From: a virus
Direction: 5' to 3' (one strand)
IMG/VR virus record: IMGVR_UViG_3300021091_000492
Location: 1 to 21,076 of that record
Length of the DNA: 21,076 nucleotides
The notes below the pieces were generated by a model. The model searched no databases. It was not told the origin of the DNA and saw only the letters and a program-made list of their open reading frames with translations. The translations under genes were made by a program, and so were the position numbers. Shown piece by piece: positions 146 through 12,377 of the stretch. The stretch's first letter is position 1. Every line of letters begins with the position of its first letter.

Positions 146-248
146 TTTTAAATCTTTTTTTTAAATTAAATCCTCTAAAAGCTGGACCTCGAGGAGGAGG
201 TGGTCCAAAACGTTTTCCTAAAATTTTAGGTTTTTTTATTTTGTACAC
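132..248 (-). CDS. small basic proline-rich protein downstream of portal
   Basis: A 38-residue ORF starts with GTG at 248, overlaps the last 23 bases of the portal gene, and ends in a double stop (TAA TAG). The product is very basic and carries GKRFGPPPPRGPAFRGF in the middle and KKRFKIGK near the end. The plus strand here is also open from 70 to 258, but that frame looks like a shadow. The codon choice, the tandem stops and the place between portal and endonuclease favour the minus-strand reading. The start is weak, with only a poor ribosome site (ACAGAG). Function is not recognised; a small virion or DNA-binding role is a guess from its charge. Confidence 0.45.
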   Translation of the reverse strand: MYKIKKPKILGKRFGPPPPRGPAFRGFNLKKRFKIGKL

Positions 249-2595
249 TCTGTTTTAAATTTAATTGTTGTTTTTGTAAGTTTAATTTTTCTTTAGCAAC
301 TTTTAATCTTTCAGCTGATTGTTCCTCTTGATTCTCCATTTTCATTCTTTCTACATCAAATTTTTCTTCTAGTTCAATTTCTTTGCGATCAAGATCTTGT
401 TGAGACTCTTGTGCTTTTCTTTGAATATCCATTGCTTTTAAATCTAATTCTCTTTGTTTAAGAGCAATTAAAGGATCTATTTGTTGAGAACCACCCTCTG
501 CTTGAATAAGTTGCGCTGTTATTTCTGCAACTTTTTTTGCCACCATAGAGTTAAATTGTATTTGAAATCCCTCTGGATCTTTTTCTGACATAATAACCAT
601 TTCTTGCGACTCAGCTATCATAGCTCCTACCTCACCTTGAGCCTTAAAAGAAATATGATCTGATATATGTGCTTGAAGTAAAGCATATACCATTGGATTA
701 ATTTGTATCATTCTACTTTGTATGAATGCACCGTGAGCAGAAATGTGAGCGTCATGATCTTGATCAGGAAAAACTTGTAGTAATTCCATCCTTAAAGCTC
801 TTGAATTTTCTATTGCAGGGTCTTGAGGCATAGGTTGTTGAGGTGGTGGCATTAATAAATCTATTTCTCTTGCGCCAATTGCTTCATAAACACGTCTATA
901 AGCTTCTCTTAGGTCATGCATAGCAGGATTTGATTGAGCAATTTGTAATTGTGTTTGTGCGAGTGTAAATCTTTGAGCCATTGAAAAAATATTTGGGTCT
1001 GCAACCGGTATTACATCGACTTTGTCATCAAAATCTTCTAATTTTACTAGTCTATCTGCTCCTGTAACTGCATAAGGATAAATTGGAGGTAAATAAGTTG
1101 CAAAAACATCAGCTAAAAGGTTAAATTCTTGCTTCATGGTGTAGTAAATTCGCTTATGAATAGCACTCATGACTCTTGAACCACGTTCTAGTAGTGCAAT
1201 TGTAGTTCCAACCGCTCTATTGGTAGCATCTTCACCTAATTGCATGTCAGCAATTGAAGCAAAACGTTGTCCAGCTTGAACACAAAAGCCTAAAAGTGAG
1301 AATAAAGTAGGACTTGGTTCTTTAAATGGTAAAATTTGGAATTGATCTTTGATATTTCCACCAGGTGCATCAACATCTCTAAATTCTCCAGGTTGAAAAG
1401 GTTGATCGTCGTCACGTATTCTTATACCTCTAGACTTAAATCCAGCTGGTAGATTAGCTAAGGTGCCAGCATCAAGTAATTGTCGTAGTGCAGAAGTTGC
1501 TGTTCTTGATAAACCACCAATCATATGTATCAAACCAAATCCATAAAAACCTAATCCTGGTAAAAATTTATAATGAACAAAATATTCTATTCGTTTCATT
1601 AATTCATCATCTGGATTATAGTTTCGATAGATGGATAAAATTTCTTGTGAACCCTCATCAATACTAACAATGTAAGGGACTTTTATATTTTTATCTTTTT
1701 TTGAAAGTTCTGGATTTTTTTCATACTCTTCAAGATCTAAATCAACATGCATCTCTAAAATATTATGTTGATACTCTGTGTCACCTGTTGGTTTAACACC
1801 TTCAATCTCATCAAGCTTTTGTTTAAGGCTGCTTTCTTCTGGTCTTTTTATTAATAACTCAATGTCCCTATAAAAACCGGCTTTTTGTTTTTTTAAAACT
1901 TCATTTTCACTCATCTTAACAATATGAGTAATTCTTTCGCAATCTTGTAAATCTGTTGCATAATAAGGCACAACTAAATCTTGTGCTGGAACAAATTTTG
2001 CAACAGCCCTTTGCATTATTTCATCATAATAAATTTTTTTGAATGCGGATCCTGATATTGGTAAATAAAACAATAACTGGTCAAATTCTGGAGTATATTC
2101 TTGCATTCGATCTACTAACATATAGTTCATAAAATCTTGGACTCTTTGTGCTTGCTCTATTGTCTCTTTAGTAGCTGCTCCAACAACTTGCGTTCTGACT
2201 GGACCTTCTGGAGGTAATAATTCTTTGTAAGCTTGAGCTTGAAATTGAGTCACTGATTCTGCCAATAATGGATGTGTTACACCTGAAGCTCCTTGAAAAG
2301 GTCTGGTTTGATCTGTATATTTAAAACCTAGTAAATCTAAACCTTGAGTATAAGTTTGTTCCCAGTCTTGTCTTGATACTTTATCTCTCTTATAATCTTG
2401 AACCAAACTATTTGCCATGCGTGATAGAACTGTTTCGTCCATATCCTCTGCCAAATTCTTATAAAAATTATCTGTAGTTTCTTCTGTAGTTTCTGTAATT
2501 TCATCATCTTCGGCTGGTGTTTCTATTTCTACATCTACTTCTTTCTCTTCAAGTAGAGGCTCCTCTGTTTGATTATTCTTATCTACTTCAGCCAT
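226..2595 (-). CDS. phage portal protein
   Basis: This 789-residue protein forms the dodecameric ring at the capsid vertex through which DNA is packaged and ejected. The length fits the long portals of podovirus-like marine phages. Visible pieces are an acidic N-terminus (residues 1-45), the early RPFQGASGVTHPLL region, a YLPISGSAFKKIYYD segment typical of portal clip/wing domains, and a central GFGLIHMIGGLSRTATSALR helix. The last hundred or so residues form a highly charged coiled coil (KAQESQQDLDRKEIELEEKF). The assignment rests on overall resemblance and on sharing an operon with the large terminase. The neighbour upstream in transcription is the 788-residue protein, 34 bases away. The ribosome site before ATG 2595 is weak, so expression may depend on readthrough from the genes before it. 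Unlike its six upstream neighbours it lacks the Gly-Gly C-terminal tail. Confidence 0.85.
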   Translation of the reverse strand: MAEVDKNNQTEEPLLEEKEVDVEIETPAEDDEITETTEETTDNFYKNLAEDMDETVLSRMANSLVQDYKRDKVSRQDWEQTYTQGLDLLGFKYTDQTRPFQGASGVTHPLLAESVTQFQAQAYKELLPPEGPVRTQVVGAATKETIEQAQRVQDFMNYMLVDRMQEYTPEFDQLLFYLPISGSAFKKIYYDEIMQRAVAKFVPAQDLVVPYYATDLQDCERITHIVKMSENEVLKKQKAGFYRDIELLIKRPEESSLKQKLDEIEGVKPTGDTEYQHNILEMHVDLDLEEYEKNPELSKKDKNIKVPYIVSIDEGSQEILSIYRNYNPDDELMKRIEYFVHYKFLPGLGFYGFGLIHMIGGLSRTATSALRQLLDAGTLANLPAGFKSRGIRIRDDDQPFQPGEFRDVDAPGGNIKDQFQILPFKEPSPTLFSLLGFCVQAGQRFASIADMQLGEDATNRAVGTTIALLERGSRVMSAIHKRIYYTMKQEFNLLADVFATYLPPIYPYAVTGADRLVKLEDFDDKVDVIPVADPNIFSMAQRFTLAQTQLQIAQSNPAMHDLREAYRRVYEAIGAREIDLLMPPPQQPMPQDPAIENSRALRMELLQVFPDQDHDAHISAHGAFIQSRMIQINPMVYALLQAHISDHISFKAQGEVGAMIAESQEMVIMSEKDPEGFQIQFNSMVAKKVAEITAQLIQAEGGSQQIDPLIALKQRELDLKAMDIQRKAQESQQDLDRKEIELEEKFDVERMKMENQEEQSAERLKVAKEKLNLQKQQLNLKQSVQNKKT

Positions 2596-2629: not shown

Positions 2630-4996
2630 TCACGCAAATATATTGACGACTAGACCGCCTTCTTTTTTGTACAATTTAAATGGTATTCCTTTCATAGTTT
2701 CAGTTACTTTAATTCCAAAAGCAGGATAGTAAAGATTAGGGTCGTTAGCCTCCATTCTAACAATCTCACCTCCTTCTCCTGTTAATCTTTTCCATTCTAT
2801 TGCCTCTGCTTGAGTTTTAAAGGCAGCCCTATGTTGTTTTGATAATTCTTTAGGCACACCTAATGCTTTAGCAGCGTTTTCATCCATGCTTATAGATTTA
2901 ACAATTTTAAATGGTTTGTTTGGATCAGATAAAGACACATTTATTGTCTTTGCTTCCGTATTGTATTGCCTTGCTAAATCCCTCATTCTATCAGGTATTA
3001 CCGCAAATAATTTTGGATCTGTAAGTTTAACTTGACCTCCTTTAGTATCAGATTTAGCGTACACTCCTGGCCTACCAGCTTTACCACTAACACTTCCATA
3101 AAATTCCCAATCACCTAACTTACCATAATAAGGTTTTTCTGCTCCGGGAGCTAAATTTCTTAAAGCATGTAATCTTTCAACAGGATTTACAACAACCCAA
3201 CTAATATTATTTTCAGCAGCTGATTTTAATGTTTGTTTTAAAGCATGATCACCATATGAGTCTCTACTAAAAAAAGGTAGGTAAGGAATTTGATTTTCAT
3301 CTGTGTAACTAAATTTTTCTAAATTTTTTCCTACATTAGAAGCATTAAGTGTTTTTTTTCTAAGTTCATCAAAATTAGATGCTAGAAGTCTAAATTCAAT
3401 TTTATCTTTGTCAGTCATTGCTGCACCTTTATCAGTTAATACTTTCATCTTATTTTTAAGATTGTTTAAAGCAACGTTAGCTTGATTAAATTCTTGTTCG
3501 GTGTTAAAAGGATTAATTACCTTAGATCTTGTTGGATCTGCTGGAAAAGCAACAGCTTGAACATCTGATTGTATTTCATCTATTGCATAAACTTTTTTAT
3601 TTGGATTTCCCTCTAATGATCTTTTACCATATCTATTATGATAAATTTGATTTACAAAATTTTCGCCTTCCACATTCTCATAATGTCTTTGTGCTCCTAA
3701 AACTCCAGGTTTAATATTTTTATCGTATGGTATTTTTTTTATAAAAGCGACATCTTCGAAATAATCTTCAGAGCCTGACATTCTATAACTATATTGGTCA
3801 CCATACCTAGGTGTTAATCCTCGAGCCATGCCTGAATTATCAAAATTTGCCTGTAACGATATATTTCTAGAAATTGCTCTACCTTTATTTGCTAGTTGAG
3901 ATAAATTTTCTTGTGATATAAATTGCTCAGGATCTATATTAAGCTCTCTTTTAATACTATCTCTGACTCTTCCTAAACCAGATAAAGATTTTTCGTTTTT
4001 TTTAATTGAAGTAAAATATTCTTGAGGAAATTGTTTAGCCGGTAAACCTTCCTCTAAAATATTTGCAAATCTAGCTCTTACACCAACAGCACGAGATTTA
4101 GCTTCCATTATATCTTTTTGAACACTTACTATAAGATTTTGAATATTTACTTTTTCTTGCGTTGGCATCTTGGCATAATAATCATCTAATTTTTTGGAAA
4201 CATCATCAAGTAGTCTTAATTCATCATTAACATAATCTGTTGCATTTTCTAGCATTTTTTCTGGTTTAGCATATCTAAATCTTTTAATAACTGTGTTTAC
4301 AGCTGGCGATTTTTCAACCATTTGAATAAGATCTAGTTTTGAAACAGGTAAATTATTTTCTTTTGCTAATCTTAAAAAACCACCTACAAGTTTTCCTTCT
4401 TTATTAAACTGAGCAATGTTGGTGTCAAACAATTCTTCTTTTGTTATTGAGGCTCTAATTTTTGCACCTGGAACAGATAATTCAATAGAACTTAATCTAT
4501 TAAAATTTGAAAATTCTTTAATCCATTGATCAGCGGGTAACGGTTTGTTAGCAGGATGTTGCGCAAGGTAATCATATAATGCAGATCCAAATCTTTCTTT
4601 TTTACCTCCTAAGGTTAATGGTTTTGTTTTACTAACATCTCTTAATTGTTTAAATTGATCTATGAACTGTTGATATTGTGAGGGTGCAACGTTTACAGCT
4701 TGCTGAGCTTTAGTTGGAACAACGTTTAAAATTTCAGCAACTGGATCACCAGGAATATCCGTGTTTCGTGATACGGGAAGCTGCGGTATTTTTTTGGTTG
4801 CAATTTCGTCTATTAATTTTGCACCAGGTAATCGTCTACGTGCTAATGCATAAATACCTAGACCTGTAGCTCCAAGTACTCCTAATCCTCCAGCTAAACC
4901 TAAGCCTGAATCTTCGGATTTTTTTGAATCACTGGGAACAGATGAGGTAGATTCAAAACCTAATTTTTCTTGTAAAAGTTTTTGAATTTCTGACAT
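2630..4996 (-). CDS. large virion-associated protein with phage polyvalent-protein-like domain
   Basis: The product has 788 residues. Residues 31-52 form a glycine-rich hydrophobic stretch (GLGLAGGLGVLGATGLGIYA) followed by RRR, which looks like a membrane-inserting or transmembrane segment. The middle is mostly helical and charged. Residues 470-600 contain VYAIDEIQSDV and then HALKQTLKSAAENNISWVVV. This resembles the DEIQSD...ALK...AA.NG pair that recurs in large phage polyvalent proteins, which are injected with or packaged beside the genome. The protein ends KKEGGLVVNIFA, the shortest version of the Gly-Gly tail shared by this gene cluster. It sits between the small tail-bearing genes and the portal. 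An internal core or ejection protein is the best guess; no catalytic residues were identified. Confidence 0.6.
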   Translation of the reverse strand: MSEIQKLLQEKLGFESTSSVPSDSKKSEDSGLGLAGGLGVLGATGLGIYALARRRLPGAKLIDEIATKKIPQLPVSRNTDIPGDPVAEILNVVPTKAQQAVNVAPSQYQQFIDQFKQLRDVSKTKPLTLGGKKERFGSALYDYLAQHPANKPLPADQWIKEFSNFNRLSSIELSVPGAKIRASITKEELFDTNIAQFNKEGKLVGGFLRLAKENNLPVSKLDLIQMVEKSPAVNTVIKRFRYAKPEKMLENATDYVNDELRLLDDVSKKLDDYYAKMPTQEKVNIQNLIVSVQKDIMEAKSRAVGVRARFANILEEGLPAKQFPQEYFTSIKKNEKSLSGLGRVRDSIKRELNIDPEQFISQENLSQLANKGRAISRNISLQANFDNSGMARGLTPRYGDQYSYRMSGSEDYFEDVAFIKKIPYDKNIKPGVLGAQRHYENVEGENFVNQIYHNRYGKRSLEGNPNKKVYAIDEIQSDVQAVAFPADPTRSKVINPFNTEQEFNQANVALNNLKNKMKVLTDKGAAMTDKDKIEFRLLASNFDELRKKTLNASNVGKNLEKFSYTDENQIPYLPFFSRDSYGDHALKQTLKSAAENNISWVVVNPVERLHALRNLAPGAEKPYYGKLGDWEFYGSVSGKAGRPGVYAKSDTKGGQVKLTDPKLFAVIPDRMRDLARQYNTEAKTINVSLSDPNKPFKIVKSISMDENAAKALGVPKELSKQHRAAFKTQAEAIEWKRLTGEGGEIVRMEANDPNLYYPAFGIKVTETMKGIPFKLYKKEGGLVVNIFA

Positions 4997-5004
4997 CTAT
5001 CATC

Positions 5005-5667
5005 CTATATTAAATCTTTTATATAATCTTGACCTTTACCGATTATAAATCCGCCAGTCGATTTTTTAGATTTTTTAATGGAATCAATATAACTTCTATA
5101 AACACCAGCAGATGAGGCTTTACCCATAACACCTGCTCTTTGCTCCATGGCAATTGCAGCTTGAACTTTATGTGCGTGAGGTTTACCACTTGCTTTAATT
5201 TTTGCGACACTCTTCCTAGCATCAGACTCTGTTGCAAACTTTAAACCATGTATAGTGCCTTTTGGATTTTCATCCGTATATAAATCAGAATGTTTTTTTG
5301 ATCCCGCTGGTTGACCTGGTTTTCTAGGTATTCTAGCCGTGCCACCTTTTTTAATCTCTATAGCTCTTATATCAGCTGGTCTTGGATCATCACTTTTTCT
5401 TATAAAAGGCATGTTAAACATTATGTCTGGCTCTGGAGTTACATTTTGATCTAAGCTGTCAGAAAAATATTCATCGTATGTATCTTGTTTTCGTCCACCA
5501 ACATCAATCTCGCCTCTTGGCTCCGTTTGATTTAATTTTTTATCAGCTATTTTTTTTTTAATTGAGGCGCCATTTTTTGCAACTTTTACACAATTAGGCA
5601 CAAGCTTATCACCTTTTTTCTTCATCCCTTTTTGTTCATATCCTACCCAACAAGTACCACGAGCCAT
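5005..5667 (-). CDS. putative virion structural protein with GG-type C-terminal tail
   Basis: A 220-residue basic protein of unknown exact role. The N-terminus CWVGYEQKGMKKKGDKLVPNC has the C-x-GYE-x-x-GMKKK...PNC pattern seen at the start of several marine phage virion proteins. Around residues 140-200, a segment with SDARKSVAKIKASGKPHAHK followed by AAIAMEQRAGVMGK resembles a helical repeat domain also known from phage structural proteins; I cannot name the family with certainty. The protein ends TGGFIIGKGQDYIKDLI, nearly the tail of the 297-residue protein. Its ATG overlaps the stop of the preceding gene as TAATG, so translation is probably coupled. Confidence 0.6.
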   Translation of the reverse strand: MARGTCWVGYEQKGMKKKGDKLVPNCVKVAKNGASIKKKIADKKLNQTEPRGEIDVGGRKQDTYDEYFSDSLDQNVTPEPDIMFNMPFIRKSDDPRPADIRAIEIKKGGTARIPRKPGQPAGSKKHSDLYTDENPKGTIHGLKFATESDARKSVAKIKASGKPHAHKVQAAIAMEQRAGVMGKASSAGVYRSYIDSIKKSKKSTGGFIIGKGQDYIKDLI

Positions 5668-5717
5668 TACAACATCCCTTTGTAATATTTTTTATCTTTA
5701 GTCATATCAATGAAGCC
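5663..5717. repeat. 55-bp direct repeat, copy 1
   Basis: These 55 bases match 6034-6088 with a single mismatch (C versus A in the AACATnCCTT stretch). They encode the last 17 residues of the 123-residue protein, the TAATG junction and the first Ala codon of the next gene. The spacing between copies is 371 bases, so the pair exactly brackets the 123-residue gene. Confidence 0.95.
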
Positions 5718-6038
5718 CCCTTTTGCTTCATACATAATTTTTTTTGATCCACCCTCTTCTTTTAAAGCTCTTAACACTTCGCGCTTATTATATTGAAAAT
5801 CATCTTTGTCTGGTTTTTCACCAAATAATCTTTTATAATTTGCATTTACAACTTGTTTATCTATTCCACGTGCACGGTCAACATCTCTGGCAAAACCTCC
5901 ACCAGTATCTATATGTTTTGCAGCACCAAATCTGATCTCTCCAAATTTTTCTTTAGCGGCATTATCTCCGAACCTTCTTGCATATCTTAAGATTTTTGGA
6001 ACTATTTTTATTGAATCTAATATAATTCTACCAGCCAT
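5667..6038 (-). CDS. small basic protein with GG-type C-terminal tail, bracketed by direct repeats
   Basis: The product has 123 residues and is rich in Lys and Arg. Nothing in its body matches a family I know; visible features are an amphipathic N-terminus (RIILDSIKIVPKILRYARRF) and a GGGFARDVDRARGID turn. It ends AKGGFIDMTKDKKYYKGML, whose last 17 residues are identical to those of the 215-residue protein before it. Both junctions are TAATG overlaps and both lie in the 55-bp repeat, so the gene looks like a cassette that homologous recombination could gain or lose. A virion or assembly role is inferred from position between terminase and portal. Confidence 0.6.
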   Translation of the reverse strand: MAGRIILDSIKIVPKILRYARRFGDNAAKEKFGEIRFGAAKHIDTGGGFARDVDRARGIDKQVVNANYKRLFGEKPDKDDFQYNKREVLRALKEEGGSKKIMYEAKGGFIDMTKDKKYYKGML

Positions 6039-6088
6039 TACAACATACCTTTGTAATATTTTTTATCTTTAGTCATATCAATGAAGCC
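6034..6088. repeat. 55-bp direct repeat, copy 2
   Basis: Near-identical partner of the copy at 5663-5717. It covers the tail-coding end of the 215-residue gene, its TAATG junction and the first Ala codon of the 123-residue gene. The near-perfect DNA match between two genes whose bodies do not resemble each other points to a recent duplication or tail exchange. Confidence 0.95.
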
Positions 6089-6685
6089 ACCAGATTTTTG
6101 CATGGTTGGTTTAAAAACATCTTTATGTATTACTGATGTAATTTTTTGTACAGTTTGATCTTTATACTCCTTAAGATTTTTTAAATTTTTTATAATTTCA
6201 TTTTTAGCTTCCTGTTTAATTTTTGGACTTTTAATAGCAAGATTAGATAAATTTTCATATAGTTCAGTTTTTTTAATTTTTGCAGCTAAAGGAGAAATTT
6301 GTTCAAAAACTTTATCCTTATTTGATAAATTACTTGTATCAACTTTTTTCCCTGCAAAAGTTACATTAGATTTTTGTACAATATCTCTTGCTTTTTTTAT
6401 ATCTTCAAAAGTTTCAGCTGCAATTTCTGGGGTTTTTTTCATGTTTTTTCGCATAGTAGATTTAACTAGAAGTCGCATTGCTGGATTTATTAAACCTCCT
6501 GGAAGTAATTTTTTTACTTTCACTTTACCTCCTAATTTTTTCTTCTCTCCCATTTTTTTAAATGCATCGACTGATTCTTTTGTTGTTGGCATTTTTAACA
6601 TTTCGACTATAGGTTCAAGTTCTTTCTTTCTTCTTTTATCAACTTCTTCACCTAGTTTACCACGCAGTCTAATACTGTCTGACAT
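6038..6685 (-). CDS. lysine-rich protein with GG-type C-terminal tail
   Basis: A 215-residue, very basic, largely helical protein of unknown function. The first 60 residues are a charged stretch (KLGEEVDKRRKKELEP). A short loop, LLPGGLINPAMRLLV, follows near residue 60, then long Lys/Asn-rich helices. It ends KSGGFIDMTKDKKYYKGML. The start at ATG 6685 has a good ribosome site (AGGAAAG, about 4 bases upstream). The next gene begins on its stop codon through a TAATG overlap. Charge and position would fit a DNA- or scaffold-associated virion component, but the sequence does not show this directly. Confidence 0.6.
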   Translation of the reverse strand: MSDSIRLRGKLGEEVDKRRKKELEPIVEMLKMPTTKESVDAFKKMGEKKKLGGKVKVKKLLPGGLINPAMRLLVKSTMRKNMKKTPEIAAETFEDIKKARDIVQKSNVTFAGKKVDTSNLSNKDKVFEQISPLAAKIKKTELYENLSNLAIKSPKIKQEAKNEIIKNLKNLKEYKDQTVQKITSVIHKDVFKPTMQKSGGFIDMTKDKKYYKGML

Positions 6686-6693
6686 GATCTTTC

Positions 6694-6948
6694 CTAGAAA
6701 ATTTTTTTTTTAACTTGAATTGGTTTCTGTCCTCTTACGGAACCTCCTTCAACCATACCTTCTGCCTCCATAATACCACCTGGAGGCCCTAAGGCTCCTT
6801 CTGCTTCTGGATAAAGTTGATTGTGAATTGTATCTTCTACTTCACGCACTCGTCTATTAGAATCCATTTCTTCTTGAGTTAGGATTCTTATTTTTGGTTT
6901 TGGTCTTCTTATTTTCCCACTCGGTCTTGGTCTTGTTCTTTCAGTCAT
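6694..6948 (-). CDS. small proline-rich protein with GG-type C-terminal tail
   Basis: The product is 84 residues with a basic, proline-rich N-terminus (RTRPRPSGKIRRPKPKIRI). A short acidic helix follows, then a flexible GALGPPGGIMEAEG stretch. It ends VEGGSVRGQKPIQVKKKIF, a Gly-Gly tail of a different subtype from its neighbours, with RGQKP and a basic end. It lies between the EF-hand protein and the 215-residue protein, with gaps of only 8-12 bases, so it is in the same operon. Function unknown; the tail makes a shared role with the neighbouring genes likely. Confidence 0.55.
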   Translation of the reverse strand: MTERTRPRPSGKIRRPKPKIRILTQEEMDSNRRVREVEDTIHNQLYPEAEGALGPPGGIMEAEGMVEGGSVRGQKPIQVKKKIF

Positions 6949-6960
6949 ATTAATTCTTAA

Positions 6961-7854
6961 TTATAGTAAGTCTTTAATATAATCTTTACCTTTACCTACC
7001 TCTATAGCACCACCGCTTTTATAACCCATGGGATCTTCATTCATCATACCACCACCCATTTTTTTTCTTGGATCCAATCTCATGGCAGGTGTTCTTAACT
7101 GGTCTAGAATTTTTTTAGTTGACCTGTCACGTATGATTTGTTGGCGTCTTTCATTTTGAGTTATTGGTTTAGATACTTCAGGTAAATCATTTAGATCAGG
7201 AAGATTTTCAAAATCTTGAGGTAAATCTATCCCTACCATTTCTCCGTCCATTGCTTTAATCATTTTACCTTTTTTAAAAGAACCTTCTGTTGCTGTACGT
7301 TCTTTTGTTTCTTTTTCTTGTCGTGCTTTTTTAAAATCTCTTTCTTCTATCTTAGCACCCGTTATTCCAAGACCTGCTGCCGTTGCTCCTGTTCCATAAA
7401 GAAAACCTCTCGTGCCTGCTTCTTTTACTCTACTTTTTGGAACAAACTCTTCTGCTCGTTTTGCAGTAGAAGGTGTTTTAGTACTAAGTATCATTCGTCT
7501 TCTTACAAATTCAGAAGGCGTTGGTGTTTCAGTACTAAGTTTCATTCCTCTTTCTGCAAATTTAGAAGGTGTTATTGCTGGTAAGTTACCTAGTAATTTA
7601 AAATACTCTTTTGCGCGCTTTCCTTTTGCAAATAATCCAGCAACAGCTTTAACCGGTTTTTTATTTCGCAACATTGCAAAATCTTCTCCAGAAATTTTAC
7701 CATCTTTGTTAGCGTCTAATTTTTTTTGGCCACCTTTTAACGATCCGCCTTTATTTTTTTTGATAACTCCTCTTCCAATTAGAATATCTTTAAAAGTTAC
7801 TTTTCCATCTTTATTTAAATCAGGGAACCCTTTTTTCTTTTTTTTATTTTTCAT
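6961..7854 (-). CDS. EF-hand-containing phage protein with GG-type C-terminal tail
   Basis: A 297-residue protein with two calcium-binding-type loops near the N-terminus: DLNKDGKVTFKD (residues 12-23) and DANKDGKISGED (47-58). Both have Asp/Asn at loop positions 1, 3 and 5, Gly at 6 and Asp at 12, the EF-hand/dockerin pattern. Residues 95-128 are two tandem 17-residue units (TPSKFAERGMKLSTETP and TPSEFVRRRMILSTKTP). A glycine-rich hydrophobic segment lies at about 150-167. The C-terminus is KSGGAIEVGKGKDYIKDLL. The ATG has a good AGGAG site and lies 8 bases after the large terminase stop. Calcium binding is inferred from the loops. A structural or assembly role is likely by position; no enzyme motif is visible. 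Confidence 0.65.
   Translation of the reverse strand: MKNKKKKKGFPDLNKDGKVTFKDILIGRGVIKKNKGGSLKGGQKKLDANKDGKISGEDFAMLRNKKPVKAVAGLFAKGKRAKEYFKLLGNLPAITPSKFAERGMKLSTETPTPSEFVRRRMILSTKTPSTAKRAEEFVPKSRVKEAGTRGFLYGTGATAAGLGITGAKIEERDFKKARQEKETKERTATEGSFKKGKMIKAMDGEMVGIDLPQDFENLPDLNDLPEVSKPITQNERRQQIIRDRSTKKILDQLRTPAMRLDPRKKMGGGMMNEDPMGYKSGGAIEVGKGKDYIKDLL
7471..7572. repeat. two tandem 51-bp units inside the EF-hand gene
   Basis: Units at 7471-7521 and 7522-7572 are similar in DNA and encode the two 17-residue repeats starting TPS and ending TP. On the plus strand, both carry AGTACTAAGT and end near AGAAGGnGTT. A partial third unit follows in the protein. Confidence 0.8.
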
Positions 7855-7862
7855 ATAATCTC

Positions 7863-9338
7863 CTAATAATATTTATATTCTTTGGGTATCCTGTCCATTT
7901 TATCTTTCCAATCAGAAAGAGTTTCAACATAGCTACCTTGGCGATATCTTAACACAGCTTGTGTGGTACTGTCGACATAGTCATCATTTGCACCATTTGG
8001 AAACGCAGCACACTCTTCAATAACCTCTTGTGCATAGTGTTCTCCTTCTGGAATCCATACTGATCCTGATTCAAATATAGGTGCACAAGCGTTTACACGA
8101 ACGTGTTTATCTCTTCCTTTTGTTGGCATAAAATCTACTACAGGTATGCCCATTCTTCTAAATTCTTGGGCTAAAGGTTGTCCAGAAGCTTTAGCTTCTA
8201 TGATAACTGTCTCTGGTTCCCAGTATTTATAGTTTTCTAATGCCACAGCTTTTAATTCTGGAAAATCATATTTACCTTTTAAAGCATCTAATAATATAAT
8301 ATTAGCACCCTTATCTTCATGAGGATAAAATACTCCCCAAGTAGTTATTGCTGAATAGTCTGCAGTCTCTTTTGCACTGAATGCCGTGTCGTAAGATTGT
8401 ATGACGTGTGAAAGATTAGGTATAGATTTTTTCTTCCATATTCTCCACCACTCTCTTTTTATAATTGCCCCTTCATCTGAGGTTGGTTCTTGCATGTATT
8501 GAGCTGCCCAGTTCCTTACAGGTAGCGATGCCTTAACTTTTTCAAGTTCATCTAGATCCCAATACTCAGGCCACACAGGTTTACCGGAACTTAAAATTGC
8601 AGGAAAAGAAATTAATCTCCACTTATCTGCTTTCAATTCTTTTTGAGCCTTTATTAATCTGCCAGTCAAATCATCTTCTGCCCAACGCGTCATAACAACT
8701 AGAATTGATCCACCTGGTTGTAAACGTTGTCTAGGTCCAGAGTTGTACCACTCGTATGCACGGTCCATGGCCATATCAGACATAGCATCTTGTTCCGTGT
8801 GTGGATCATCAATGATCAGTAAATCCGCACCACGGCCCGTGATGGATCCTCCAACACCTGCAGCGTAATATTCTCCACCATGATTTGTTTCCCAACGTCC
8901 TTTTGCTTTTGAGTCTTCTTTTAATTTAACGTTACCAAAAATTTGTTTGTATTCCGATCGCTCCAACAAGTTTCTAATCTTACTACCAAATCTTACAGCA
9001 AGTTCTGCGTTGTGAGACACCTGCATTATTTTCATCTTGGGAAACTTCCCTATCATCCAAGCTGGATAAAGATAGGAAGCAAATTCAGATTTAGTATGTC
9101 GTGGAGGCATATTTATAATGAGCCTTCCTTTTTTTTGACTGGCTATCTTCGTAAATTCATTTGCTATAATTTGATGGTGCCCCCATTTAGTTGGGTCCTT
9201 TTCTTTACGACAAATAAAATCAGGCCAAACTTCCTGAACAAAATATAAAAAATTATCCTGGCACAACCTTATATGATTCAACAATTTTATTTCAACTTCT
9301 GCACGAAGTTTTTCAATTGTATAGAGAGATTTATCCAT
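7863..9338 (-). CDS. terL: terminase large subunit
   Basis: This 491-residue motor protein powers DNA packaging into the prohead and cuts the concatemer. The ATPase half has a Walker A variant MPPRHTKSE (residues 77-85), a Walker B LLIIDDP (173-179) and a VVMTRW coupling motif (214-219). The nuclease half shows the acidic residues of the RNase H-like fold: D317 in SYDTAF, E381 in IIEAKASG, and D453/D456 in NDDYVDST. The order and spacing are as expected for a complete protein. The ATG at 9338 has a GAAGG ribosome site. Unusually for phages, the small subunit is not adjacent but lies about 3.7 kb upstream, with accessory genes between. The 217-bp gap before the gene carries inverted repeats and a possible promoter. 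Confidence 0.95.
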   Translation of the reverse strand: MDKSLYTIEKLRAEVEIKLLNHIRLCQDNFLYFVQEVWPDFICRKEKDPTKWGHHQIIANEFTKIASQKKGRLIINMPPRHTKSEFASYLYPAWMIGKFPKMKIMQVSHNAELAVRFGSKIRNLLERSEYKQIFGNVKLKEDSKAKGRWETNHGGEYYAAGVGGSITGRGADLLIIDDPHTEQDAMSDMAMDRAYEWYNSGPRQRLQPGGSILVVMTRWAEDDLTGRLIKAQKELKADKWRLISFPAILSSGKPVWPEYWDLDELEKVKASLPVRNWAAQYMQEPTSDEGAIIKREWWRIWKKKSIPNLSHVIQSYDTAFSAKETADYSAITTWGVFYPHEDKGANIILLDALKGKYDFPELKAVALENYKYWEPETVIIEAKASGQPLAQEFRRMGIPVVDFMPTKGRDKHVRVNACAPIFESGSVWIPEGEHYAQEVIEECAAFPNGANDDYVDSTTQAVLRYRQGSYVETLSDWKDKMDRIPKEYKYY

Positions 9339-10368: not shown

Positions 10369-10417
10369 ACCGCCTCCCGTGGCGGTTTTTTATTTATAAT
10401 TAAATAAAACCACCACG
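10369..10417. terminator. overlapping hairpins: plus-strand terminator and long minus-strand stem
   Basis: On the plus strand ACCGCC-TCCCGT-GGCGGT is followed by TTTTTT, the form of an intrinsic terminator. The same GGCGG also pairs in a longer stem with AAAACCACCACG (10406-10417). That long stem has a G-U pair only in minus-strand RNA. The two folds exclude each other. It lies in the 3' region of the 198-residue gene. Confidence 0.5.
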
Positions 10418-10438
10418 AACGAGAACGAGAACGAGAAC
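10416..10438. repeat. GA-rich hexamer repeat (ACGAGA)n, site 1
   Basis: CGAACGAGAACGAGAACGAG and a further AAC form about three and a half tandem copies of a six-base unit, starting directly at the stop codon of the 198-residue gene. Related blocks recur at 11289, 12175, 12259 and 12341. Confidence 0.85.
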
Positions 10439-11034
10439 TATCCGATAGTAAAACCACCAGAATTCTCGGCGAACTCTATGAACTCAATCACACAATCTTT
10501 TGAGAATGGATAATTAGCTATTGGGTTTCTTTTTTTAAAAATTTTATCCCAAACTTTTTTGTGCTTTTCTGGGTAATCTCTTGGGACAATCTTTTTATCT
10601 TTTGTTTCTTCGATAACTTTTTCACGCAACTGCTGACATAATTTTTCTAATTTTTCATTATGCTTTTCTGCTTGTTTTATTTTTTCTGCGTGAAACTTTT
10701 CATATTCATCAACACGACCAGTTTTTAATAGATGTTTTAATTGTCTTACAATCATTAATGCTGTTGTTTCATTAACCTCGTGATTATCGTTGTAATGCCA
10801 ATTATCTCTATCTTTATCTTCAACGCATTTAGTTTCTTCAATTATGAAATTAGCGAGAGGTCTCCACCACCAAACATTGAGACGAAAATAATAACCTTTA
10901 TTATCATTTTCAAATTTGTCTTTAGCTTCGTAATAATCCTCTTTATCTTTTTCGGTTGCTGTTTCCCAATCTATTGAGGGTTTTACTGAACCCTCTTTAA
11001 TTTTAGGATTAAGTCCGTATAAGTCAAAGCCCAT
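10438..11034 (-). CDS. conserved phage hypothetical protein (GFDLYG...NSGGF type)
   Basis: The 198-residue product begins MGFDLYGLNPK. It has a tryptophan cluster YYFRLNVWWWRPLANFI near residue 50, a long charged helix in the middle, and ends YPFSKDCVIEFIEFAENSGGF. The same order of features (GFDLYG start, YFRxNVWWWRPL, and a C-terminal F...F..NSGGF) occurs in a protein found in many unrelated phages whose function is not known. The start has a very good ribosome site (AAGGAGG), and a strong promoter with a perfect TTGACA lies upstream. GA-rich repeats follow its stop. Confidence 0.75.
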   Translation of the reverse strand: MGFDLYGLNPKIKEGSVKPSIDWETATEKDKEDYYEAKDKFENDNKGYYFRLNVWWWRPLANFIIEETKCVEDKDRDNWHYNDNHEVNETTALMIVRQLKHLLKTGRVDEYEKFHAEKIKQAEKHNEKLEKLCQQLREKVIEETKDKKIVPRDYPEKHKKVWDKIFKKRNPIANYPFSKDCVIEFIEFAENSGGFTIG

Positions 11035-11055
11035 TTTTTCCTCCTTGTTGATTTA

Positions 11056-11091
11056 TCCCATACAGATAAGATATTCGCTAAACTTTGTCAA
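11056..11091 (-). promoter_or_regulatory. promoter, recurrent motif copy 2
   Basis: On the minus strand a perfect TTGACA (11086-11091) is followed 16 bases later by TTATCT within ATCTTATCTGTATGGGA (11056-11072). It drives the 198-residue gene, whose AAGGAGG lies just downstream. Confidence 0.7.
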
Positions 11092-11311
11092 ACGAACTTT
11101 TTCACTATTTAGTTGTAAAAAAGTCTTTCTATAAAGCACAAGGATTTGCAAGTTGAACTTCCAACGACCTACACCCCGTCCAGATTTTCTAGTTATGGTT
11201 GCAAAAAATTCTGCAAACCAACGAGACACCACAGCTGCCTGGATGCCGATGGCTACTTCTTGTTTACTGATCCGAGAACCGAGCCCCAACGAGAACGAGA
11301 ACGAGAGCGAC
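11092..11311. other. GC-richer gap with dispersed repeats, no convincing gene
   Basis: This 220-base stretch is visibly richer in G and C than the genes around it. It contains the hexamer block at 11289-11310, and the word CGACCTACACC at both its ends. Open frames exist on both strands, but they have only TTG starts and no ribosome site; one runs through the promoter at 11056-11091. I see no gene. A small inserted or shuffled element is possible. Confidence 0.5.
11289..11310. repeat. GA-rich hexamer repeat, site 2
   Basis: ACGAGAACGAGAACGAGAGC and the next two bases repeat the ACGAGA unit, about three and a half copies. It follows the stop of the 34-residue membrane peptide on the minus strand, as site 1 follows another stop codon. 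Confidence 0.85.
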
Positions 11312-11416
11312 CTACACCAATTTGGACGCCCCGAGAATCAGGACGATCCAAATGGTGGCTGCTGTCTCAGGATACAAGATTGCAAATAGCGCGAGGATTA
11401 ATATCAGAGTCCACAC
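11312..11416 (-). CDS. 34-residue two-segment membrane peptide
   Basis: The GTG at 11416 follows a strong AAGGAG eight bases upstream, itself overlapping the stop of the gene before. The product is almost wholly hydrophobic: WTLILILALFAILYP, then a short polar ETAAT turn, then IWIVLILGASKLV. This looks like a hairpin of two short membrane segments. It is the last gene of the operon that begins at 12026. The size would suit a membrane-acting toxin, holin helper or host modulator, but the sequence does not decide. An inverted repeat (11317-11328 with 11344-11355) lies inside the coding stretch. Confidence 0.6.
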   Translation of the reverse strand: MWTLILILALFAILYPETAATIWIVLILGASKLV

Positions 11417-11428
11417 GTTACAAACTCC

Positions 11429-11611
11429 TTAATTAAATCTCACAGGTTCGGCCTTCCTGATGTCGTCTTCAAAATAAATAGGCTCACCCATAATTTCATA
11501 TCCAGCTTTTTCTAGAAATATTTTTTTTGCACTAGTTTTATTTTTTGCAAAAATTTTATAACGCATCGTTGCAGGTATATCGTAGACAAATAGTTTATTT
11601 TTATTTTTCAT
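11429..11611 (-). CDS. hypothetical small phage protein, 60 residues
   Basis: A basic N-terminus (KNKNKLFVYDIPATMRYKIF) leads to AKNKTSAKKIFLEKAGYEIM and an acidic IYFEDDIRKAE end. The alternation suggests a small alpha/beta domain. I chose the ATG at 11611; a TTG two codons upstream is less likely. It overlaps nothing but follows the previous stop by 2 bases, so translation is probably coupled. Function unknown. Confidence 0.6.
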   Translation of the reverse strand: MKNKNKLFVYDIPATMRYKIFAKNKTSAKKIFLEKAGYEIMGEPIYFEDDIRKAEPVRFN

Positions 11612-11613
11612 GA

Positions 11614-11874
11614 TCAATCCAAAAGAACCATATACTCAGATGGAAAATTTTCAATAAACCAGTCGAGACCTTCACGATGAGTTTTCCAATCCTCAAATCT
11701 TTCGGCCCCCATAATCATGTCGTACACAGCGACTGCAAACCACGGCAGCTTGCATCTGTCACCTCCGAAACGATTCTGTACTTCTATTATCTGACCTTTA
11801 TCCCATTCTAAATTCACGTCAAAGGGCATTGGATAGTTTTTACCTTGCCAATGCACCGTCTGCATTATTCTCAT
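11614..11874 (-). CDS. hypothetical small phage protein, 86 residues
   Basis: The product has several aromatic and acidic patches: VHWQGKNYPMPFDVNLEWDK, RFGGDRCKLPWFAVAVYD and WFIENFPSEYMVLL. It is acidic and probably a compact soluble domain; no family recognised. The start overlaps the stop of the preceding gene as ATGA. The ribosome site AGGAGG lies just upstream, inside that gene. Confidence 0.65.
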   Translation of the reverse strand: MRIMQTVHWQGKNYPMPFDVNLEWDKGQIIEVQNRFGGDRCKLPWFAVAVYDMIMGAERFEDWKTHREGLDWFIENFPSEYMVLLD

Positions 11875-12026
11875 TTTTCCTCCTGTTCATTTTCTTTTTT
11901 CTTTCTTAATTTAGAAGGATCCATCTCCCACATATGAACTCCATCTTCTGACATGGGTTTTTTCTTAAAACCATATTCACTTAGTTTATCCGTGAAGACT
12001 TGTTCATTAGTTTTTTTCTCTTTCAT
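11871..12026 (-). CDS. 51-residue hypothetical protein, first gene of its operon
   Basis: ATG 12026 has a strong AGGAG site in the shared CAACAGGAG leader, with the recurrent promoter upstream. The peptide contains KLSEYGFKKKPMSEDGVHMW and ends in a Lys/Glu-rich helix. The stop overlaps the next ATG (ATGA). Size, clean start and coupling make this a real gene. Function unknown. Confidence 0.65.
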   Translation of the reverse strand: MKEKKTNEQVFTDKLSEYGFKKKPMSEDGVHMWEMDPSKLRKKKENEQEEK

Positions 12027-12045
12027 TTTTTCTCCTGTTGGTTTC

Positions 12046-12081
12046 TCCCATTTAGATAAGATAGTTTATACCTGAAGTCAA
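12046..12081 (-). promoter_or_regulatory. promoter, recurrent motif copy 3
   Basis: On the minus strand TTGACT (12076-12081) precedes ATCTTATCTAAATGGGA (12046-12062), with the TTATCT box 16 bases after the -35. It drives the operon starting at 12026. Confidence 0.7.
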
Positions 12082-12174
12082 GAGCTTGGTTAGATTATTT
12101 TTATGCAGGAGAGCTGTGGAAGGAGCTGCTCTCAGGCTGGATGCTTCTTCTATTTAAGAAACACGGCGATATCA

Positions 12175-12377
12175 AACGAGAAGCGAGAGACGAGATGCCT
12201 GAATCCAGGCACGGGAGCTAACCGATGGTGCTTTTTAAATCATTATTTGGCGTAATTAAACGAGAAACGAGGAGCGAGAACCACGAGCTCCTGACGCTGC
12301 TGCCTGAAGGAGATGCCTGAGTCCATCTTCATTGTCATTGAAACGAGAAACGAGAACCGGGCAACGAGAAACGAGAT
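12175..12377. repeat. cluster of GA-rich hexamer repeats and a direct repeat
   Basis: Degenerate ACGAGA blocks lie at 12175-12195, 12259-12280 and 12341-12377. Between them the 16-base word GAGATGCCTGARTCCA occurs twice (12192-12207 and 12310-12325, one difference). The first copy is part of the small hairpin GCCTG-AATC-CAGGC (12197-12210). Half of the cluster lies within the 3' end of the nuclease gene and half in the gap after it. The region is GC-richer than its surroundings. Confidence 0.8.

Follow-up and report, generated by a model that had tools for sequence, protein, structure and literature searches.

Head-entry signals for internal phage proteins are known in few cases, and these are mostly N-terminal and confined to a single protein. 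The capsid-targeting signals of phages T4 (IPIII) and P1 (DarB) are N-terminal; the first 30 residues of DarB suffice to bring a reporter into the head, and the Dar proteins have no common sequence (PMC9024508). In phage P22, a basic C-terminal segment docks the scaffolding protein to the inside of the capsid, and loss of 11 C-terminal residues abolishes binding (PMC9965877). Family 1 encapsulins rely on short C-terminal peptides that load or dock unrelated cargo proteins to the shell (PMC8346489). Polyvalent proteins, encoded near portal and terminase genes, are host-modifying and predicted to be packaged and injected, as the ADP-ribosyltransferase (ART) Alt of T4 is known to be (PMC5512222). 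Here, we analyze short C-terminal tails opened by Gly-Gly (GG) on six consecutive genes between those for the large terminase subunit (terL) and the portal in a 21,076-base fragment of an uncultured podovirus of the HTVC023P type (IMG/VR record IMGVR_UViG_3300021091_000492), referred to below, at its full length, as the window.

GG tails of the terL-portal island

All six genes (positions 2630-7854, minus strand) end in GG followed by 7 to 15 residues, and the C-termini are exactly those recorded in an earlier, sequence-only reading of this DNA (Table 1). That reading had also called the bodies unrelated, and with the tails removed they gave no mutual blastp match below E = 0.44. Tails no more alike than random Lys-rich ends were excluded: their pairwise similarities summed to 422 against a mean of 242 for composition-preserving shuffles, none of which (n = 2,000) reached the observed value, and without the identical pair on the 123- and 215-amino-acid (aa) proteins the sum was 234 against a shuffle maximum of 204. 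What had been described as one shared tail resolves into three kinds of tail behind one common GG. Class A is found on the 297- and 220-aa proteins, class D on the 215- and 123-aa proteins, class B on the 84-aa protein, and class C on the 788-aa protein, with A and D recognizably alike (ungapped, GGAIEVGKGKDYIKDLL / GGFIDMTKDKKYYKGML). A recent copying event at the DNA level links the two D tails, which are 95% identical over 62 nucleotides (nt).

The pattern was confirmed to be real and to extend far beyond this one window, across a group of uncultured water phages. For an unbiased set, 80 viral loci were picked by TerL alone, their genes were called, and the C-termini between terL and portal were read; the simple longest-ORF rule used for calling affects starts but leaves C-termini unaffected. 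GG fell within the last 24 residues in 68 of 97 distinct interval genes, compared with 43/457 genes upstream of terL, 8/170 on the opposite strand, 0/36 TerL and 3/36 portal proteins; 11.6% of internal 24-residue windows of the interval proteins held it. The contigs are fragmentary and interrelated, so that these gene counts are not independent; a family-level test, which corrects for this in part, gave 19 of 26 interval families against 6 of 120 upstream (Fisher p = 2.6e-13). The number of interval genes varied from 0 to 8 across loci, and the interval is therefore a variable island within a conserved frame. The gene directly upstream of portal usually bears a class B tail, and the largest tagged contigs, two of 57 and 49 kb, have A and B tails nowhere but in the island and just behind portal. 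In Pelagibacter phage HTVC023P, gp30, gp32, and gp51 end in class B tails.

Near-terminal GG was also seen in other settings. A 198-aa protein upstream of terL in the window (10438-11034, minus strand) ends SGGFTIG, and its family (HTVC023P gp23 and relatives), a single one, ends SGGF.I[CG] throughout. The 868-aa late protein gp83 of HTVC023P (L152:10992-13598) ends RGGIADVRRK, a GG tail outside the defined classes, and the large late proteins at the equivalent place in HTVC027P and 023Pt_psg01 are without a tail of this type. Four consecutive HTVC023P fiber-like genes (L003:36241-41937) end GGSG[IV]V[IV]IRYKFQ, where GG has a different, family-specific meaning.

Conservation and exchange of tails

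Class A (GG..xGKGKDYIKDL[LI]) was gathered with a degenerate DNA pattern for GKGxDYIKD, which matched 60 stretches in IMG/VR; conservation of those residues is thus partly preselected, but this does not hold for the GG, its location at the C-terminus, or the diversity of bodies. Class B was recognized by a regular expression with no such DNA-pattern preselection. Among called ORFs, the class A motif ended 1 to 2 residues before the stop in 109/109 instances, in proteins no longer than 297 aa and in up to four consecutive genes per contig.

Clustering of the tagged proteins by body gave 43 clusters, and the expectation that the tail is kept while bodies vary was borne out, the non-homologous junctions numbering 29 for class A and 33 for class B. 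With one protein counted per such junction, the best tail positions held about 3 bits (class A) and 2-2.6 bits (class B), and positions -12 to -4 before GG held 0.1-0.5 bits. An alignment of 110 tagged proteins kept only the C-terminal GGxVxxxKGxxxIK. Tails were also exchanged on homologous bodies: L160 (tail E) and L007 (tail D), which end GGLVKKGFPKLAKKGWK or GGFIDMTKDKTYYRGIL, have 75% DNA identity in the body, as far as GG, and 51% in the tail, and further exchanges (A/E, A/B, D/E) were found.

Selection acts on the tail peptide, since 73 class A tails were written in 46 DNA versions with codon diversity mostly near the background of the proteins themselves, and the Lys codon AAG was no commoner with a TAATG stop/start overlap to the next gene (23/50) than without one (10/23). 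Concerted evolution of tails within a genome found weak support, tail DNA being slightly more alike within contigs (0.834 versus 0.811, 22/1,000 permutations).

The class A tail had no match in 84,980 prokaryote genomes. In INPHARED, tblastn gave no match for class A and, for class B, one match in HTVC023P and one at chance level in a Burkholderia phage, queries of 22-27 residues making this a weak test with little power. A PDB sequence search with tail peptides, the major capsid protein (MCP), and one modular body gave no useful match. A literature search found no earlier account of internal phage proteins that share a conserved C-terminal motif or tag, which is no proof that none has been published, and the main paper on HTVC023P-type phages is without discussion of C-termini, portal, or proteomics.

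Bodies that carry the tails

The largest tagged protein of the window, of 788 aa, has 25 homologs with 32% mean column identity, in all of which G780, G781, L782, and F787 of the class C tail are invariant. In an AF2 model (pLDDT 75 overall), the tail is unstructured (pLDDT below 50); a tail that is invariant yet predicted to be unstructured is typical of a linear docking motif. Foldseek matches of this model in BFVD include viral proteins annotated as large polyvalent, LPD, and ART-PolyVal (E 1.7e-5 to 3.5e-3), and the sequence scored below cut-off against Pfam LPD22 (E 0.064). There was no PDB structural match at E 0.001, and a second PDB comparison gave mostly helical-bundle matches. The gene lies between terL and portal in both the window and its relatives, which is the late portal/terminase operon setting of polyvalent proteins. 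Near its N-terminus, the protein has a Gly-rich hydrophobic stretch (GLGLAGGLGVLGATGLGIYALARRR; window 4840-4996, minus strand), and the small B-tailed proteins beside portal have a similar one; membrane insertion after ejection is a possible role for these stretches.

A second effector-like body, 128-172 aa long and ending in tail D or E, recurs as a family (the ART-like bodies of L160/L007/L060/L058/L164) that matched ART-PolyVal below cut-off (E 0.0089). In VIA-align, the structural neighbors of its low-confidence model were nearly all of the ART fold (Z 4.2-6.0), and the L160/L007 body is probably an ADP-ribosyltransferase.

Pfam gave nothing above cut-off for the large tagged or interval proteins. 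DUF6496 was found in 15/110 tagged proteins, and the other small recurrent modules include EF-hand/dockerin-like loops and a CPRGKAAAKRKFKVYPSAYAN module. Residues 5-38 of the 220-aa protein match phrog_727 (E 5e-11), and its module recurs in L120 and L139. A 154-aa protein of L146/L155 combines a KKLLPGG segment similar to that of the 215-aa protein with the D tail GGFIDMTKDKKYWKGIL. In cyanophage P-SCSP2, some modules of tagged bodies occur as separate proteins that lack a tag and are encoded between the scaffold and capsid genes, which supports the addition of tags to pre-existing bodies.

The 297-aa protein opens with two calcium-loop motifs (DLNKDGKVTFKD, LDANKDGKISGED; window 7660-7830, minus strand), the second of which forms a stand-alone 41-aa protein in P-SCSP2, and its gene holds a 51-nt tandem duplication (84% alike; window 7472-7573). 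One widespread family with A tails (about 130 aa; L011:3343-3732, L136:1196-1711, and relatives) looks beta-strand-rich, with alternating Gly and aromatic residues; a protein resembling it had a weak OMP beta-barrel match (E 0.096). PADLOC matched 1/110 tagged proteins to the REase_II nicking endonuclease family (E 1e-4).

A proposed head-docking role and its alternatives

The sequence-only reading had offered docking, packaging, or cleavage as roles for the tails. Docking or packaging is favored by the distribution of the tails and their restriction to the head module, their modularity, conservation, and exchange, selection at the peptide level, a conserved yet unstructured end, and the cargo-like nature of the bodies; cleavage fares worse, as the conserved part would be the part discarded. 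We give an even chance to the interpretation that the GG tails are modular C-terminal head-docking peptides that load cargo; tail binding, loading, and delivery with the DNA are what we infer. A groove on a conserved head component, with the MCP, scaffold, and portal as candidates, would bind the tail during prohead assembly and thereby bring the body ahead of GG into or onto the head, the flexible GG that opens each class acting as a hinge. Effector-type bodies, such as the polyvalent-like 788-aa protein and the ADP-ribosyltransferase-like proteins, would then be delivered together with the DNA, and new cargo could be recruited whenever a body gained a tail by recombination at the GG junction. 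The MCP is 76-89% identical to that of HTVC023P in 9/10 tagged contigs searched, so that a stable candidate receptor is available. A broader version, to which we give somewhat less than an even chance, is a plug-and-play cargo system, in which a few exchangeable C-terminal address peptides would be read by capsid or scaffold, any body could be loaded, and bodies and tails would be swapped at the GG hinge; it would be a phage counterpart, and possibly an evolutionary forerunner, of encapsulin cargo loading.

Several observations weigh against a head-docking role. A recognized ejection-protein family (HTVC023P gp81) is without a class A-E tail, and the tag is therefore not a mark of all head cargo. 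Two class D genes of L146 (2052-2731) lie about 5.5 kb upstream of terL. With several classes in one genome, there would have to be either more than one receptor or a single groove that tolerates them all. For the ART assignment, the HMM score is sub-threshold and the model is of low confidence (pLDDT 59).

If the tails do load cargo, the putative injected proteins of a phage could be predicted from sequence by reading the last 20 residues, and first-contact effectors of abundant marine and freshwater phages would be among them. The tails would also connect encapsulins to phages and offer a short tag with which to load proteins into phage heads. The cultured HTVC023P, with its class B tails, makes part of this testable now.

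An unlikely alternative is that TerL, the portal/terminase complex, or some transient platform of assembly is what the tails dock to, the tagged proteins being packaging accessories and not internal cargo. In most loci the tagged genes are flanked by terL and portal, and a class B tail is usual just upstream of portal, which would fit this. However, core packaging factors would vary far less than these bodies do (0 to 8 interval genes), effector-like bodies fit cargo better, and in the more distant roseophages, CRP-901 and CRP-810, DNA is packaged without such genes beside terL.

We consider it improbable that GG is a maturation cleavage site at which a phage or host protease removes the tail and so activates the body or frees it once loaded. 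The low information at -12 to -4, set against strong conservation of the tail that would be discarded, argues against this, and no separate prohead protease was recognized among the tested HTVC023P proteins; the MCP of HTVC023P itself has weak matches to MCP-plus-protease families. The constant GG ahead of different tail classes and the proteolytic processing of some T4 and P1 head proteins speak for cleavage, and docking followed by cleavage is possible.

A more doubtful idea still is a nucleic-acid feature, in which the tail DNA serves as a recombination joint or as the ribosome-binding site of the next gene and the peptide is a by-product. Most class A genes do overlap the next start by 1 nt, the Lys codon able to form AAGGA is enriched (AAG, 45% versus 14%), and both the 62-nt repeat at the two D tails and the slight within-contig likeness of tail DNA point the same way. 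The many codon versions and the AAG counts at overlaps run counter to it, leading us to reject a Shine-Dalgarno by-product as the sole cause of the tail, and tails are also kept ahead of gaps of 64-92 nt; DNA-level joints may account for tail spread but not for tail conservation.

Least probable is a degron, chaperone-recruiting, or host-targeting signal working in the cell and not in assembly: the tails end in hydrophobic residues, and the mobile loop KTKGGLILGQE (GG plus three hydrophobic residues) of the phage GroES, a core gene of HTVC023P-type phages, resembles KSTGGFIIGKGQ, but GG is mostly followed by a polar residue in classes A and B (GGSVEVGKG), and such a signal does not account for the conserved GKGKDYIKDLL part. 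Mimicry of the GroES loop as such was set aside, the likeness being limited to some tails.

Genomic context of the window

TerL of the window is 72.8% identical to that of HTVC023P and 59-62% identical to those of HTVC027P, 023Pt_psg01, and DSL-LC04. Related portal, DNA polymerase, and UvrD helicase genes are also present, in keeping with the HTVC023P type, and the gene order (Table 1) was recovered in L171-L176 with window proteins as queries. Upstream of terL (window 10417-12376), AACGAGA/AAACGAG repeats cluster within and next to short intergenic regions, and ACGAGAAACGAG has 4 matches versus 0.06 expected; this could be a packaging or regulatory region.

Table 1. Late genes of the window from terL to portal, with their C-terminal tails
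Feature	Position	Strand	Match or remark
terL, large terminase subunit, 491 aa; island border	7863..9338	-	phrog_38 E 1.5e-113; Terminase_6C/6N
297-aa protein, dockerin/EF-hand-like N-terminal part, class A tail GGAIEVGKGKDYIKDLL	6961..7854	-	Dockerin_1 E 4.4e-8
Class A tail of 297-aa protein, stop codon included	6961..7014	-	
84-aa protein, class B tail GGSVRGQKPIQVKKKIF; compare GGFARGQKPIQVKKVPFRGVF in L013/L014	6694..6948	-	
Class B tail of 84-aa protein, stop codon included	6694..6747	-	
215-aa protein, class D tail GGFIDMTKDKKYYKGML	6038..6685	-	
Class D tail of 215-aa protein (repeat D1)	6038..6091	-	DNA 95% identical to tail of 123-aa gene
123-aa protein, class D tail GGFIDMTKDKKYYKGML	5667..6038	-	Matches elsewhere essentially confined to the tail
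Class D tail of 123-aa protein	5667..5720	-	
220-aa protein of recurrent modules (CWVGYEQKGMKKKG..VPNC; KASGKPHAHKVQAAIAMEQRAG), class A tail GGFIIGKGQDYIKDLI	5005..5667	-	
Class A tail of 220-aa protein	5005..5055	-	
788-aa polyvalent-like protein, class C tail GGLVVNIFA (relatives GGLVVDLFKW)	2630..4996	-	AF2 model and BFVD fold matches
Class C tail of 788-aa protein	2630..2659	-	
Portal, 789 aa; other island border, without GG tail	226..2595	-	phrog_1216 E 3.3e-46

Comparison with known systems

Among polyvalent proteins, the 788-aa fold and the ART-like bodies find their likeness, with Pfam scores here below the curated cut-offs; the excerpted source mentions no shared C-terminal tag for such proteins (PMC5512222), whereas here the tag is shared. 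The P22 scaffold segment, which belongs to a single protein, is a helix-loop-helix about 30 residues long, whereas the GG tails have 9-20 residues and occur on many proteins. Unlike the P22 scaffold, the likely scaffold of the tagged phages (HTVC023P gp37) is without such a tail. As in T4 IPIII and P1 DarB, whose signals bring internal host-acting proteins into the head, the GG tails would be short terminal signals; they differ in being all C-terminal, common to dozens of bodies, and exchanged, and we do not class them with the T4 and P1 signals. Family 1 encapsulin targeting peptides are likewise short, at the extreme C-terminus, and borne by unrelated bodies, which in the present case are putative cargo. 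In encapsulins, the peptide binds a pocket on the inner face of a shell with the HK97 fold. The encapsulin consensus SDGSLGIGSLKRS is not matched by class A-E tails, which we therefore do not file as members, and, unlike that system, the GG tails sit in a phage head operon, in several classes per genome, with a binding that is here proposed. The GG tails thus combine features of these systems, being C-terminal, GG-hinged, shared, and exchanged.

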